DNA from: Candidatus Pacearchaeota archaeon CG06_land_8_20_14_3_00_35_12
GTDB lineage: Archaea; Nanobdellota; Nanobdellia; Pacearchaeales; PEVX01
Assembly: GCA_002780285.1 (NCBI GenBank)
Contig: PEVX01000017.1
Coordinates: 1-37,146, forward strand
Length of the DNA: 37,146 nucleotides
Direction of reading: 5' to 3'
Every line of letters begins with the position of its first letter. Within the stretch, counting starts at the first letter, position 1. Position numbers and translations under genes: made by a program. The notes under the pieces were generated by a model. It was given only the letters and a program-made list of their open reading frames with translations, was not told where the DNA came from and ran no database searches. Shown piece after piece: positions 9,627 through 21,287 of this stretch.

Positions 9627-10835
9627 TCAAGATTTTAAGGCAAGAGTCTCCTCAAGAATCGCCTTAACCTTTGGAATAAGATTCTGAGGAATGGCGAGAC
9701 TTATTTCTTTAGTCCTGCCATATCTCCCCTTAGATATCACTGTTGAATTTATCAGTCCAAACATTGCCCATTCTTCAATAATATCTCCTACTCTTCTCTG
9801 AGTTAATACTTCTGTGTTTACTTTTTGGCAAAGCTGGGAATATGTATTGTATATCTCGCTTGTAGAAATTTTTTTATTTCCATCTTTTAATAAATCAAGG
9901 ATTGTAAGCAAAGTTATCTGAAATTGCTTTGGCTCTGTTTGAACAACATCTAAAATTTTATCCCGTTCAATCTCATTATTCGCTTTATCAACATAATGCA
10001 TAGAAACTTTTTTTTGACCTTCTCTTTCTGCCAATTCTCCAGAAATTCTTAATAAATCTAACGCACGTCTTGCATCTCCATGCTCTAAGGCAGCAAGAGC
10101 TGCAGCTTTTTCAAGAACGCCTTCTTCAAGTGCTCCTTTTTTAAAAGCTTCTTTTGCTCTTTCTCTAAGGATATCTTGTAATTGAATTCCATTATAGGGC
10201 GGAAAAGTAATCTCTTCCTCGCCAAGCGAGCTTCTAACGCGAGGATCTAAATTATCTAAAAAAGTAAGATCATTACTGATCCCAATAATTACTATTTGCG
10301 TTTTCTCAAGTTCAGAATTTAATCTTGTTAAATTATATAAGAATTGATCTCCAATTCTCTTTACAGCCTCATCAATTTCATCTAAAATTAAAAGAATTAA
10401 TTGCTTTTTTTGTTCAATCAAATCTATAAACCGATTATAGACTTGATTTGTAGGAAGTCCTGTTGTGGGAACTTCTCCACCCAATTTTCTTATTAACTCA
10501 GCAAGAATTCTATATTCAGTATCAGAGATTTTCCTTAATTTACAATTAAGATATTCTATTGCAAGAGGAACTTTAAACTCTTTACTTTTCCGGAGGAGTT
10601 CATCTCTGATATAGAGAATGCTTAATGTTTTTCCTGTTCCAGTTTTTCCATAAACAAAAAGATTAGAACTCCTTTCCATTTTTAAAGCAGGAGCAAGAAT
10701 AGAGGCAATCTTCTTTATTTGCTCATCTCTATGAGGTATTGTTTCGGGAGTATAGTTTGTCTGAAGCTTAGATTTATCCTTAAAAATTTCCCCTTTAGAG
10801 AAAGCATCAAAAATTTTATCTAGTTTTATTGCCAT
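9627..10835 (-). CDS. cdc6: Orc1/Cdc6 replication initiator
   Basis: This 402-residue AAA+ initiator binds origin (ORB) elements and loads the MCM helicase. It shows Walker A GKTGTGKT (63-70), Walker B LLILDEID (148-155), a sensor-like IIGISNDLTFLDNLDPR with the box VII arginine, and a C-terminal winged helix (about 310-400). Length matches archaeal Orc1/Cdc6. It reads away from the 519-base gap 10836-11354, which holds ORB-like sites, so it probably autoregulates and initiates there. A minus-strand TATA (CTTTATAAA, 10901-10909) would give a leader of about 40 bases. PolD genes follow directly. Confidence 0.95.
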   Translation of the reverse strand: MAIKLDKIFDAFSKGEIFKDKSKLQTNYTPETIPHRDEQIKKIASILAPALKMERSSNLFVYGKTGTGKTLSILYIRDELLRKSKEFKVPLAIEYLNCKLRKISDTEYRILAELIRKLGGEVPTTGLPTNQVYNRFIDLIEQKKQLILLILDEIDEAVKRIGDQFLYNLTRLNSELEKTQIVIIGISNDLTFLDNLDPRVRSSLGEEEITFPPYNGIQLQDILRERAKEAFKKGALEEGVLEKAAALAALEHGDARRALDLLRISGELAEREGQKKVSMHYVDKANNEIERDKILDVVQTEPKQFQITLLTILDLLKDGNKKISTSEIYNTYSQLCQKVNTEVLTQRRVGDIIEEWAMFGLINSTVISKGRYGRTKEISLAIPQNLIPKVKAILEETLALKS

Positions 10836-10944
10836 TTTCCTCTTTTTTCCCTGTTTTCTTACTTACTTTCTTTCCTTCTTTTTAAAAAAGGTTGTCCTCT
10901 TTTTATAAAGATTATTCAATCAGAAAATAATGATACAGACCTAT

Positions 10945-10958
10945 ATTTCCAATGGAAC
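10945..10958 (-). promoter_or_regulatory. Partial (mini) ORB-like initiator site
   Basis: The plus strand reads ATTTCCAATGGAAC. The minus strand (TTCCATTGGAAAT) shares the TCCATTGGAAA core with the stronger element at 11142-11169 but lacks a clear G-string. It lies on the orc1 side of the A/T tract in opposite orientation, as expected for an origin pair. Confidence 0.5.
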
Positions 10959-11034
10959 TAATTTTTAATTGAAACAGAGTTTAAAAATTAATCTTATTTG
11001 AAAAGAGATGTCTTTAAATGATTAGTTATAATGC

Positions 11035-11093
11035 TTATTATTATAATATAATTAATATATAATATATAATATATAATATAAATATTTAAAAAA
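11035..11093. repeat. Pure A/T tract with AATATAT tandem units (probable unwinding element)
   Basis: Fifty-nine consecutive bases carry no G or C. They include three consecutive AATATAT units and further near copies. The tract is bracketed by the two ORB-like elements, about 80 bases from one and 50 from the other, which is the classic position of a duplex-unwinding element. Confidence 0.65.
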
Positions 11094-11141
11094 CAAAAAT
11101 ATAATATCGACGAGAAAAAACCCAAAGCTTTTAAAAATCTT

Positions 11142-11169
11142 TCTCCATTGGAAACAAGAGGGTGACCCC
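11142..11169 (+). promoter_or_regulatory. ORB-like origin recognition box
   Basis: TCTCCATTGGAAACAAGAGG followed by GTGACCCC. The core TCCAnTGGAAACnAA followed by a G-rich string matches my recollection of the archaeal ORB consensus bound by Orc1/Cdc6. The match is by eye, not by a scored search. Confidence 0.7.
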
Positions 11170-11324
11170 TTTTCCGATAGAAAAGCTTATTTCTATATTC
11201 TCCTTTTCTCTCTTAAATTTAAGAAAAAAGGTTAAAAATCCATTAAAATACCTCCTCATTGAATTCTTTTCTTACCTTTTCTCTTTCTTTTTCCTTATAG
11301 TTATACTATTAGAGAATAGAAAAA

Positions 11325-11333
11325 TTTATAAAT
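11325..11333 (+). promoter_or_regulatory. TATA box of PRC-barrel gene
   Basis: TTTATAAAT ends 21 bases before the ATG at 11355. This spacing predicts a leaderless transcript and supports that ATG over the out-of-frame ATG at 11348. Confidence 0.65.
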
Positions 11334-11354
11334 AAATTATTTATCTAATGAAGC

Positions 11355-11615
11355 ATGGCAATCGAAAAAAAACCTTCCAAAGAAATCATTGGAAAGAATA
11401 TTGTAACCAAAGAAGGGAAAAGATTAGGGGTCGTCAAAGACATTATCTTTGAAACCAGAACAGGGGAGCTTCTTCAGATTGTAGTTATGACTCCTACAGA
11501 ATTTGCATTATCTCTCAATATTGAAAAAACCCAGAAAAAAGAACTATTAATTCCTTATAATTCAGTTCTAGCCATTGGTGATTTTGTAGTTGTTTCTGAG
11601 GAAGACCTAATTTAA
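11355..11615 (+). CDS. PRC-barrel domain protein
   Basis: This 86-residue protein is essentially one PRC-barrel: IIGKNIVTKEGKRLGVVKDI opens the domain, then a strand pair VVMTPTEF and the closing LIPYNSVLAIGDFVVVSEED. Stand-alone PRC-barrel proteins are frequent in archaea, where small versions have been linked to cell division (CdpB-type) and RNA metabolism. Which applies here cannot be told. It has its own TATA box, is leaderless, and is followed 21 bases later by an unknown gene probably on the same transcript. Its place beside the predicted origin and orc1 is notable but not proof of a replication role. Confidence 0.85.
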   Translation: MAIEKKPSKEIIGKNIVTKEGKRLGVVKDIIFETRTGELLQIVVMTPTEFALSLNIEKTQKKELLIPYNSVLAIGDFVVVSEEDLI

Positions 11616-16382: not shown

Positions 16383-16430
16383 TCTATTTAAACGAAAAAA
16401 AGTTAGTTGAAAAACCAAAAAAGAAAGAAA

Positions 16431-17117
16431 ATGACAGAAGAAGACGCAATACGCGAAGCATTTTCGCGCATAAAACAAGATATCCTTGAATTAAAACAAG
16501 AAATTAGCCTATTAAAACAGGAAATTTATGCTATAAAACAAGATAAGCTTGAAAACCCAACAGATCTCCAACAAATAGCCATAACTGAAGAAAGACCCCA
16601 ACACATAAATCAAGGAGATAAGCCTTATCTCTTAAGTTCCATAGGAAATGATGGGGTTCCAACAGACAAACAGACAGACAACAAACAGACCAACAGACAG
16701 GTTTCTGAAGCATATTTTAAGCTGAATAACTATGCTCCTGAAAAGCAATTTACCGACGATAAACAAGACAATATGTGCCAAAAAGACAACCTAATGGCCT
16801 TGGTTTCAGGGTTAAAAGAAGAATTAAGGCAGAGCTTCCTTAAACTGACAAAACAAGAGTTTCTAGTGTTCTCAGTCATTTATGGCCTTGATGATCAGGG
16901 AGTTCAAGTTACATATCCCGTCGTCGCTGAGAAAACAAAGCTTTCTGAGAGCTCAATACGAGATTATATTCTGAGGATTATGGGAAAAGGCATACCTTTA
17001 GAGAAGCAGAAAATCAACAATAAACAAGTCATAATTAAAGTAAAACCAGAGCTTAGGAACCTTACAACCTTAGATTCTTTGATAAAATTAAGAGAATTTG
17101 GCTTAGATAAGCCTTAG
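16431..17117 (+). CDS. Coiled-coil / polar-linker / HTH protein A
   Basis: The ORF track starts at a TTG (16407); the ATG at 16431 fits better, giving 228 residues. Residues 10-38 form a heptad coiled coil (IKQDILELKQEISLLKQEIY), so it should oligomerise. Residues 40-125 are a polar, low-complexity linker containing TDKQTDNKQTNRQ, encoded by four AACAGAC repeats. Residues 138-215 form a helix-turn-helix (LTKQEFLVFSVIYGL...VVAEKTKLSESSIRDYILRI) with a basic C-terminal wing. I do not know the family. The architecture matches the protein at 17524-18141, which faces it across a T-rich gap. A TATA-like CTATTTAAAC lies at 16384-16393. Confidence 0.7.
   Translation: MTEEDAIREAFSRIKQDILELKQEISLLKQEIYAIKQDKLENPTDLQQIAITEERPQHINQGDKPYLLSSIGNDGVPTDKQTDNKQTNRQVSEAYFKLNNYAPEKQFTDDKQDNMCQKDNLMALVSGLKEELRQSFLKLTKQEFLVFSVIYGLDDQGVQVTYPVVAEKTKLSESSIRDYILRIMGKGIPLEKQKINNKQVIIKVKPELRNLTTLDSLIKLREFGLDKP
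16661..16698 (+). repeat. Four AACAGAC repeats inside coding linker
   Basis: AACAGAC occurs at 16661, 16669, 16684 and 16692, spaced 8, 15 and 8 bases. The spacings are not multiples of three except 15, so the repeat is regular in DNA and changes reading frame in the protein. It lies in the linker of HTH protein A, the same place as the palindrome array in the partner gene. Confidence 0.6.
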
Positions 17118-17523
17118 AAAGCCCTTTTTTTAATCATTTACTATATAAAACAGTCTCATCTTTACGTTATACCGAATATCTTTTAAGAACTATTGATTAT
17201 TGATTTTTTTGCCTTTTTAAGCCTTAATTAACCTATTTTTTGCATTTCTTTTGATGAATTTTAAAGCTTTTTCTCACACTTTTACTTCAACTCTTTCTTT
17301 TTCCCCTCAAACAGTCTTTTTTCTATTTTCTGGCCTTTTACCCCTTTTTCTCTATTTTTTTAATTTTCAGGTCTTTTTAGCCATATCTAATAACTCTCAC
17401 TTTTTCTTTTTCCAGGCTTTTTAGAATTGTTAAAGCGAACCTTTCATAATATTTTTTGCCTTTAAATTCATTAAAGCGAACCTTTACACCCTCACTTTTC
17501 TATTTTTTACCTATTTTTCTAGA
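17118..17523. other. 406-base T-rich convergent intergenic region
   Basis: There is no credible gene between the stops of the two HTH proteins. The plus strand is strongly pyrimidine-rich with many T5-T8 runs. It starts with a T-tract just after the protein A stop (CCCTTTTTTTAA), which probably terminates that gene. It contains the second copy of TTATACCGAATA (17167-17178) followed by a TATA-like CTTTTAAG, and repeated GCC/GGC-TTTTTA-GCC-like blocks at about 17211, 17333, 17371 and 17414. Two copies of a 15-mer lie at its right end. It could be a multiple terminator, an untranslated RNA or a decayed gene. Confidence 0.5.
17430..17485 (+). repeat. Direct repeat TTAAAGCGAACCTTT, two copies 41 bases apart
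   Basis: Exact 15-base copies at 17430-17444 and 17471-17485. Related forms occur at 19314-19325 (AAGCGAACGTTT) and, inverted, at 19256-19270 (CTTTAAAGTTCGCC). All are intergenic within the island. Confidence 0.65.
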
Positions 17524-18141
17524 CTATTTCTTCATGCTTTTACCTGTTTTTAAGTTCGTTTTAATAGTCTTTAATATCATGGACTTCATTTCATCTGAAA
17601 TGAATATTCGCTTCTTGCCATTTTTCTCAACCATTTCTTCAACTAATCCTTCACTTTTCTGTCTTATGCTGTTTATCTGGCCACGAATAGTTGCTTTATC
17701 TTTTCCCATCAAAGAAGCAACATCTTCATAGCTCAATTTCATGTTTGTATTCAGAAGCACCCAGACAATAGATCTCTCCATTGAAGATAAATTTCTCATT
17801 ACCCCTGTTTGAACAGCTGTTTGAACAGCTGTTTGAACACCTTGAACAGCTGTTTGTTTATGAACAGCTGTTTGTTCATGTTTAAACGGCTGTTTAAAAC
17901 CACGAGTTCCAAACAAAGAAATAAAACTTTTAAGCTCTTCAAATTCAGATTCTACCGTCGACAAACGTTCTCTGAGCTCTTCAATATCTTCAGTATGCCC
18001 CAAAGTGCGATTATTTAGATGGCGGATCCATTCTGCTGTTTTTTTTAAGTCATCTTTAACAGCAGAAAAAGAGTTTTTTATGCCATCTTTGAGCTCATCA
18101 AGGTCGTCATCTCTCTTTTTTCCAAAAAACAACCAGGCCAT
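17524..18141 (-). CDS. Coiled-coil / QTAV-repeat linker / HTH protein B
   Basis: This 205-residue protein has a short hydrophobic N-terminal MAWLFFG and a long amphipathic coiled coil (about 12-78). Its linker (82-114) is built of QTAV-type repeats (KQTAVQGVQTAVQTAVQ). A C-terminal HTH (120-175: MERSIVWVLLNTN...YEDVASLMGKDKATIRGQINSIR) ends in a basic tail. I do not know the family. It should form oligomers that bind DNA through the HTH. The linker is encoded by palindromic AACAGCTGTT units and an identical unit lies in its upstream region, hinting that the protein binds its own gene. A TATA (TATATAAA, 18163-18170) gives a leaderless mRNA. Confidence 0.75.
   Translation of the reverse strand: MAWLFFGKKRDDDLDELKDGIKNSFSAVKDDLKKTAEWIRHLNNRTLGHTEDIEELRERLSTVESEFEELKSFISLFGTRGFKQPFKHEQTAVHKQTAVQGVQTAVQTAVQTGVMRNLSSMERSIVWVLLNTNMKLSYEDVASLMGKDKATIRGQINSIRQKSEGLVEEMVEKNGKKRIFISDEMKSMILKTIKTNLKTGKSMKK
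17812..17894. repeat. Array of AACAGCTGTT palindromes inside HTH gene B
   Basis: Perfect palindromes AACAGCTGTT occur at 17812, 17824, 17845 and 17863, with a one-mismatch copy AACGGCTGTT at 17885. The first four are in the same codon phase (coding QTAV). The fifth is shifted by 22 bases and read in another frame (KQPF), so the DNA motif rather than the peptide is conserved. The first three copies share the 15-mer TTGAACAGCTGTTTG with the intergenic copy at 18232-18246; the fourth differs only at its first base. Confidence 0.85.
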
Positions 18142-18234
18142 AATATTTTATTCTTAACAGCGTATATAAATCTTTTTATTTTCACAAGAATTAAAAACTT
18201 CAAGCACCCATTATTAGCTGTAAAAAAGGGATTG

Positions 18235-18287
18235 AACAGCTGTTTGGAATTGCATTTTACCGACGAAAAAGCACTTAAACAGGTGTT
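18235..18287. promoter_or_regulatory. Intergenic palindromes matching the HTH gene B array
   Basis: The 198-base gap between HTH gene B (minus) and the 89-residue gene (plus) has a perfect AACAGCTGTT at 18235-18244 and a one-mismatch AACAGGTGTT at 18278-18287. They are about 65-115 bases upstream of the gene B TATA and 20-75 bases upstream of the plus-strand TATA (GCTTAAAAC, 18309-18317). They are candidate operators for a self-binding regulator. Between them lies TTTACCGACGA, also found inside HTH gene A. Confidence 0.55.
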
Positions 18288-18339
18288 TAAACAGCCTTTT
18301 TTGATATGCTTAAAACTTTCAAGCAGGGCTTTAGTTAAA

Positions 18340-20471: not shown

Positions 20472-21287
20472 ATGATAGACCTTGAAAAATTAAAAACTGA
20501 GATGAAATTGAGAGGATTTACAGATAAAACCATTTCAACATATTTATTTTTCAATGAAAAATTTCTGAATTTTATTGGGAAACAAGAAGCAGAGATAGTT
20601 GGTGATGATATCAAGAAATATTTTGCTTCATTAATGGACAAAAAATCAAGAAACACCATGATGATTGCATATTCTGCATTAAAGTTTTATTATGACGAGA
20701 TCTTGAAAAAAAGCATTTTTCCAGACATTAAATTACCTAAAAAAGAACAGACAATGCCAAATGTCCTTACAAAAGATGAACTCAAAAAACTCATTGATTC
20801 AAGCCAAACAAGAAAAAGTAAATTTATCATTTCATTTCTGTATGCAACAGGCATGAGGGTTTCTGAACTTGTCAATCTGAAAAAAGAAGACATAAATTTA
20901 CAGGAAAAGGTTGGATGGGTTAGAAGAGGAAAAGGCAAGAAAGATAGATTATTTATTATTCCTGAAAAGCTCGTTCCAGAAATTCAATTCTTTATTGACA
21001 ATTCAAAAACACCCTTCCTTTTTTCTAGCAGTAATAAAGATGAGCATTTAACTGCAAGAAATATTCAAAAAATTTTAAAAACAACTGCAAAAATTGCAGG
21101 AATAAGTAAAAAAGTTTCCCCACATACGCTGCGTCATTCATTTGGGACTCATTTGCTTGATTCTGGTGTCGATATTCGCAGAATACAGGAACTATTGGGT
21201 CATTCAAGTCTTCAAACCACACAGATTTACACACATATTTCAACAGAAGAAATTAAAAAAATAAAAAGCCCTTTTGAAGAATTGTAA
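20472..21287 (+). CDS. xerA: Tyrosine recombinase XerA
   Basis: This 271-residue recombinase is the length of archaeal XerA, which resolves chromosome dimers at dif. An N-terminal SAM-like core-binding domain (1-85) precedes the catalytic domain. The catalytic set is visible: R in TGMRVSEL, K in RRGKGKKDR, H-x-x-R in HTLRHSFGTHLL, H in LLGHSS and the nucleophile Y in TQIYTH. Having one compact Xer in a core-gene context favours the housekeeping role over a phage integrase, though it borders the accessory island. The TATA at 20443-20450 gives a leaderless transcript. I found no convincing dif site. Confidence 0.92.
   Translation: MIDLEKLKTEMKLRGFTDKTISTYLFFNEKFLNFIGKQEAEIVGDDIKKYFASLMDKKSRNTMMIAYSALKFYYDEILKKSIFPDIKLPKKEQTMPNVLTKDELKKLIDSSQTRKSKFIISFLYATGMRVSELVNLKKEDINLQEKVGWVRRGKGKKDRLFIIPEKLVPEIQFFIDNSKTPFLFSSSNKDEHLTARNIQKILKTTAKIAGISKKVSPHTLRHSFGTHLLDSGVDIRRIQELLGHSSLQTTQIYTHISTEEIKKIKSPFEEL

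Follow-up and report, generated by a model that had tools for sequence, protein, structure and literature searches.

The locus described here raises a simple question: why would the gene of a putative DNA-binding protein carry an array of DNA palindromes within its own coding sequence, and what might such an array be for? The gene, here called gene B, occupies positions 17524–18141 on the − strand of the window, that is, of the whole 37,146-nucleotide stretch of archaeal DNA that was analysed. An original prediction, made from the letters of the window, held that the protein binds these sites. Either looping autoregulation or a parS-like nucleoprotein cluster was proposed as the consequence, and repeat expansion from a mobile element was named as an alternative.

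The palindromic array of gene B

Gene B encodes a protein of 205 amino acids with a coiled coil (residues 7–78), a disordered linker (80–112), and a winged helix-turn-helix (HTH) domain (about 115–205). An AlphaFold2 model based on 27 orthologues gave the same boundaries for the helix and the disordered stretch, followed by the winged HTH, with a mean pLDDT of 74 and values of about 90–96 across most of the HTH. Foldseek matched the model to AbfR2 (Lrs14-like; E 1.9e-4), MarR-type regulators, and the winged helix of ORC2. With respect to the MarR/Lrs14 families, the protein stayed below the curated cut-offs (20.3 bits vs 80 for NCBIfam Sta1 and 17.6 vs 90 for lrs14). A search of the window's own genome returned no paralogue of gene B. 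Among 378 genomes sampled from the class, an orthologue was present in most members of the same order, each with one copy. The comparisons below cover 81 orthologous loci, namely the window plus 80 loci from Pacearchaeota, Nanoarchaeota, or unassigned archaeal MAGs (one is labelled Aenigmarchaeum); most of the sequences come from metagenome assemblies, with start codons set mechanically. Many orthologues lie less than 3 kb from a contig end, as though assemblies break near the locus. More distant homologues (L255–L261) have a different C-terminal domain and upstream repeat arrays built from different words (TGTTAAGAT, GTTACTAAC, ACGTCGAC), with no obvious array in the linker.

Perfect copies of the palindrome AACAGCTGTT are located at 17812, 17824, 17845, and 17863 inside gene B and at 18235 upstream of it, and copies with one mismatch at 17885 (AACGGCTGTT) and 18278 (AACAGGTGTT), all as originally described. 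With up to one mismatch allowed, the window holds 10 matches compared with 1.8 expected from shuffling (highest of 100 shuffles, 5). The palindromes are thus confirmed as real and well above chance. The 15-mer TTGAACAGCTGTTTG, said to be shared by three coding copies and the intergenic one, was found unaltered at 17809, 17821, 17842, and 18232; the fourth coding copy, at 17863, departs from it once. Translation likewise agreed with the claim that the fifth coding copy uses another frame: the four perfect copies in the gene encode QTAV, whereas that at 17885 encodes KQPF. In the proposed comparison with the genomic background, five of the seven AACAGCTGTT copies in the 566-kb assembly clustered within 433 bp at the gene B locus; the reversed control word does not occur in the assembly (0 copies).

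On comparison with the relatives, the repeated unit is better given as TGTTYAAACA, and AACAGCTGTT is where two neighbouring units join. On the + strand of the window, the unit occurs as TGTTTGAACA at 17806, 17818, and 17830 and as TGTTTAAACA at 18284. The intragenic iteron array in the linker-coding DNA, composed of TGTTTGAACA, AACAGCTGTT, and AACGGCTGTT sites, extends from 17806 to 17894. The upstream sites fall within 18229–18300 (AACAGCTGTT at 18235–18244, AACAGGTGTT at 18278–18287, and TGTTTAAACA at 18284–18293), and TGTTTAAACA is the most frequent upstream 10-mer in the relatives (46 of 81 loci). A likely TATA-type promoter of gene B is located at 18155–18180 on the − strand (AAAAAGATTTATATA on that strand); AAGATTTATA is among the most frequent words upstream of the orthologues. 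The stretch TTTTACCGACGAAAAAG at 18255–18271 belongs to a conserved CG[AT]CGATAA-type element of the gene B upstream region. This element, present in the window at 18257 and, within gene A, at 16750, reaches 1.86/kb upstream of gene B vs 0.018/kb in the flanks; it also occurs in distant homologues from other families.

Across the 81 loci, AACA[CG][CG]TGTT sites reach a density of 14.2/kb where the linker is encoded and 2.4/kb within 300 bp upstream of the gene, compared with 0.077/kb in the rest of the gene, 0.048/kb far upstream, and 0.008/kb downstream. Linker and upstream DNA therefore carry the sites about 300 to 1,800 times more densely than the downstream flank. Upstream, 58 such sites were counted vs 0.17 in shuffles; they are distributed over 39 of the 81 loci and lie mostly 50–225 bp ahead of the start codon of gene B. 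The broader half-site [CG]TGTTTA reaches 13.4/kb upstream vs 0.34/kb in the flanks, with at least two copies in 65 of 81 upstream regions. On three near-complete contigs, half-sites cluster most densely around gene B, where 600 bp contain 8, 7, and 13 of them, compared with at most 3 elsewhere.

That the DNA word rather than the peptide is conserved, as had been claimed, was borne out by the codons. In 214 cases of VQT, glutamine is invariably encoded by CAA (214/214) and valine almost always by GTT or GTC (211/214). In 23 cases of QVF, by contrast, glutamine is CAG in 22 and valine is GTG in all 23, although GTG accounts for 12% of valine codons in the background. Glutamine and threonine codons outside the gene B linker are near background levels. 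Because identical residues take opposite synonymous codons depending on the frame, and both choices spell one DNA word, we conclude that selection acts on the DNA. A codon-bias artefact as the origin of the palindromes is ruled out by the same frame dependence. Homologues that keep QTAV without palindromes had been named as a counter-test. When it was run, some loci were seen to keep QTxV in respelled form; their linkers spell TGTCCAAACA, which is also over-represented upstream of those genes. Within Pacearchaeota, linker and upstream spelling showed a moderate association (rho 0.44, P 1.6e-4), and C-type upstream words were found in 10 of 20 loci with C-type linkers vs 7 of 48.

A second DNA word and the recognition helix

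Homologues in other families of the class possess a different linker (FMNVQSFMNVQS, HERVQSFNRS), whose DNA forms a CGTTCA/TGAACG array with 6–11 half-sites per gene. CGTTCA reaches 59.9/kb in the linker, 0.83/kb upstream, and 0.11/kb in the flanks, and 12 loci of these families combine the linker array with almost no upstream sites. The peptides over the array (FMNVQS, HERVQSF) are wholly different, and the codons are again skewed: phenylalanine is TTC in 86% vs 26%, serine TCG in 36% vs 4%, and arginine CGT or CGC in 68% vs 6%.

The type of recognition helix goes along with the type of word, TIRGQ-like helices with TGTYYAAAC in 85 of 87 genes and TVRRH with CGTTCA in 13 of 13, in counts that ignore phylogeny and comprise few independent switches. 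Under the pattern used, recognisable words are few or absent in two orthologues; one exception, L093, carries GTTCAAACAGGCGTTCAAAC and may arguably be an artefact of the pattern. Both winged-helix types are represented in families f48 and f49, and there the linker word tracks the winged helix, not the N-terminal half. Two members of the same family (L217 and L231) agree to 42% in the N-terminal half and 32% in the winged helix, whereas two proteins of the same type from different families (L219 and L216) agree to 63% in the winged helix. Such a pairing of helix and word would be expected of a winged helix that recognises the array within the gene encoding it. Because the frame-opposite codons and the covariation of recognition helix and word both point to it, protein B very probably binds its own linker array and the upstream array, as the original prediction had supposed.

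The orc1/cdc6 neighbourhood and gene A

The window contains, in this order, DP2 (assigned by position and length), DP1, cdc6, an AT-rich region with sites resembling the Origin Recognition Box (ORB), several genes including one for an Lhr-type helicase, gene A, and gene B. The orc1/cdc6 gene (9627–10835, − strand) was recognised by TIGR02928 (E 1.7e-123) and Pfam Cdc6_C. Between it and a gene for a PRC-barrel protein lies a probable classical oriC (10836–11354) with 77% AT and ORB-like sites at 10956 (−) and 11144 (+). The PRC-barrel gene (11355–11615) is divergent from cdc6 and was found in 52 of 80 loci. In 10 genomes, the window's own included, cdc6 and gene B are 2–17 kb apart; in an eleventh cdc6 lies at a contig end, and a full-length cdc6 was not found in the twelfth genome searched. 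A cdc6 gene is present in 44 of the 80 loci, a set in which flanking sequence is often short. A gene for a Xer-like tyrosine recombinase (20472–21287) accompanies gene B in 43 of 80 loci. In L226, L245, and L246, which belong to other families, a tyrosine recombinase apparently abuts the gene B homologue; by eye, the upstream DNA of these three loci is devoid of sites and resembles the coding end of an integrase-like gene.

The region of gene B as the only origin was ruled out, since ORBs are also present upstream of cdc6. Because this ORB-bearing, AT-rich oriC is kilobases away, the gene B array need not be the site of initiation. A local GC-skew minimum lies near 18 kb of the window, but GC skew was set aside as origin evidence because the whole-contig profiles of three genomes disagreed: in one, gene B is close to the maximum, and in the other two the minimum is tens of kb away from it. 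In the literature searched (open-licence papers only), we found no description of origins in these lineages.

Gene A (16407–17117, + strand; the ATG at 16431 is the more likely start) encodes a coiled coil and an HTH with weak profile matches to HTH_36 and sigma-region families. It is present in all 80 of 80 orthologous loci and convergent to gene B every time. Its coding sequence includes TCCATAGGAAATGATGGGGTT at 16638–16658 on the + strand (peptide SIGNDGV), which is close to the published common archaeal ORB motif, TCCA[CG]T[TG]GAAA[TC][GA]AAGGGGT (PMC4164010). The linker peptide S[IT]GNxGV is encoded in the window by TCC-ATA-GGA-AAT-GAT-GGG-GTT, and the DNA of 78 loci reads TCCAnnGGAAA[TC]nnnGGGG[TC]T with rare departures. 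Synonymous sites within it are frozen, serine being TCC in 77 of 78 loci and GGA and GGG being kept in 78 of 78 each. Judged by this motif, the conserved linker DNA of gene A is an archaeal ORB. Two near-complete genomes (G138 and G108) each contain just two instances of the ORB-like pattern, one within gene A and the other upstream of cdc6; a third such genome yielded only a site near cdc6.

Straight after the gene A ORB, repeats of the ACAGAC/AACAGAC type cover 16661–16701 on the + strand. Their counterparts are (ACAG)n in most Pacearchaeota and (TTCA)n, (AGCA)n, (CTCA)n, or (GAGC)n in other families, i.e. the word varies by family and the period of 4 is kept. Lag-4 identity behind the ORB was 0.65 in the orthologues vs 0.43 (maximum 0.45) in synonymous recodings. 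The B/A intergenic region (17118–17523) has 73% AT and strand-specific GTGAG repeats (CTCACTTT at 17396 and 17491, CACACTTT at 17275). In the B/A intergenic regions of the orthologues, AAAGTGAG was counted 152 times in forward and 0 times in reverse orientation; these repeats also occur at the 3′ end of gene B, where they partly encode the C-terminal KVRV.

Function of the array and comparison with known systems

Taken together, the computations establish the array, its selection at the DNA level, the covariation of helix and word, the linkage to cdc6, and the ORB in gene A. The reading we regard as probable is that of an origin-linked, self-encoded iteron array. Protein B, a winged-helix protein with a coiled coil and probably oligomeric, would bind arrays with a TGTTYAAACA core in its own gene and upstream of it. 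The disordered linker, comparatively free to vary as protein, would leave room for DNA sites to be encoded in it. The array would belong to an origin-linked region together with the neighbouring orc1/cdc6 and with gene A, whose linker contains the ORB and the tetranucleotide repeats. A nucleoprotein complex formed in the proximity of the origin may then control how the cdc6 origin fires, unwinds, or segregates, besides regulating gene B. Physical binding by protein B, its oligomerisation, and its role in replication or segregation are what we infer here from sequence. An origin-linked role is best supported because of the cdc6/ORB setting and the single cluster per genome (three genomes tested). 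In this respect the original account was incomplete, as the orc1/cdc6 linkage, the ORB of gene A, and the persistence of the array without upstream copies had escaped it.

A wider reading, to which we give slightly less than even credence, is that in this DPANN class the origin and segregation apparatus is partly written into the convergent genes A and B, with linker array and winged helix of B travelling and diverging together as a replicator-like module. In such a module, site and reader would be linked in one gene, and the site specificity would have been switched from TGTYYAAAC to CGTTCA or the reverse.

A parS-like centromere and autoregulation are serious rivals to the origin-linked array. 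The former overlaps with it and is judged here as serving segregation only: protein B, acting in partition or chromosome organisation, would load on the array and might have as partner a ParA/MinD-type ATPase or SMC from elsewhere. The single dense cluster per genome near the origin, the coiled coil, and the weak similarity of 6 of 27 orthologues to Pfam HTH_ParB are consistent with this idea, and ParA-like ATPases and SMC are encoded in the genomes. However, no ParA/SegA gene was recognised beside gene B in the window, the PF13614 matches being elsewhere in the genomes; protein B lacks a detected ParB CTPase domain, and the sites are short half-site arrays. We consider segregation as the exclusive function unlikely. 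A literature search for parS within spo0J as a precedent gave only loosely related papers.

Slightly more doubtful is pure autoregulation, by which protein B, as repressor or activator, would act on its own promoter only, upstream and intragenic operators would loop or form a roadblock, and the position next to cdc6 would be incidental. The location of the upstream sites in 39 loci, the lack of a regulon-like scatter of sites across three genomes, and a winged helix like that of AbfR2/MarR regulators argue for it. Nevertheless, promoter control is unlikely as the sole function because the array persists in the 12 other-family loci in which upstream sites are nearly absent. The site-free upstream DNA of L226, L245, and L246 points in the same direction, and both the ORB of the neighbouring gene and the strict cdc6 linkage would be left unexplained. 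Looping autoregulation and a parS-like cluster, the two roles originally proposed, may both apply, and looping is unlikely to be the only role of the array.

Protein-level selection on QTxV as a functional motif, with the palindromes as a by-product of codon bias, could draw on the conserved VQTxVQTxVQT of the alignment but is highly improbable in view of the frame-dependent codons, the same word in non-coding upstream DNA, and the entirely different peptides over the arrays of other families. Equally improbable is the recent repeat expansion or mobile-element scar suggested at the outset: the 12-bp periodic units resemble tandem duplication and an integrase-like gene is nearby, but the array is conserved over 81 loci, in orthologues only about 43–59% identical to the window protein, recurs with another word in other families, and had no match among plasmid records.

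The origin-linked array would have consequences beyond this locus. An ORB in coding sequence would escape origin finders that scan only between genes, such as Ori-Finder 2. With predicted sites inside the gene of their own binder, and a word that covaries with the recognition helix across about 100 genomes, the locus is a direct system for protein–DNA specificity switching. The results also suggest that disordered linkers may serve as writing space for cis-acting DNA, and so open a question about compact genomes to testing.

Archaeal orc1/cdc6 origins comprise ORBs with a G-string beside cdc6 and an AT-rich region (PMC4010727, PMC4164010). The present locus resembles them in its adjacent orc1/cdc6, its consensus-matching ORBs (16638–16658; ORB-like at 10956 and 11144), and its AT-rich region, and differs in that one ORB lies within the coding sequence of gene A with tetranucleotide repeats behind it. 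At oriC3 of Sulfolobus, the gene of the winged-helix protein WhiP is located beside the cognate origin (PMC4010727, PMC4164010). The likeness to WhiP is one of layout; protein B combines a coiled coil with one predicted winged helix, and the putative sites lie within the gene that encodes it. In the UBP/ucm system of Sulfolobus, a second, non-Orc protein occupies an origin element, and UBP binds hundreds of genomic sites (PMC12141716). Protein B would similarly be a non-Orc binder at an origin, but its sites form one cluster per genome. In bacterial oriC, the DnaA-box is followed by short-period, strand-specific repeats, the DnaA-trio. The ORB of gene A with its short repeats is comparable by analogy only, as the period is 4 instead of 3 and the DNA is coding. 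The fold of its C-terminal domain and weak Sta1/Lrs14 profile matches relate protein B to Lrs14/AbfR2/MarR regulators, from which it is set apart by scores below the cut-offs, the long N-terminal coiled coil, and a linker that encodes DNA sites.

In the lambda O gene, an array of inverted-repeat binding sites is situated in the middle of the gene, and added iterons add residues to the protein (PMC7466680). As in lambda O/ori-lambda, gene B would be the gene of a DNA-binding protein with its predicted cognate iterons inside. Homology is not indicated, as protein B gave no match to lambda O in Pfam, NCBIfam, or PDB sequences; it consists of a coiled coil and a MarR/Lrs14-like winged helix, and an initiator role would follow only by analogy. 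Unlike lambda O, gene B resides on an archaeal chromosome and not in a phage, has an upstream array in addition, and is accompanied by a separate Orc1/Cdc6 and ORB system. In its layout, the gene B array may be viewed as a chromosomal, archaeal counterpart to lambda O/ori-lambda.
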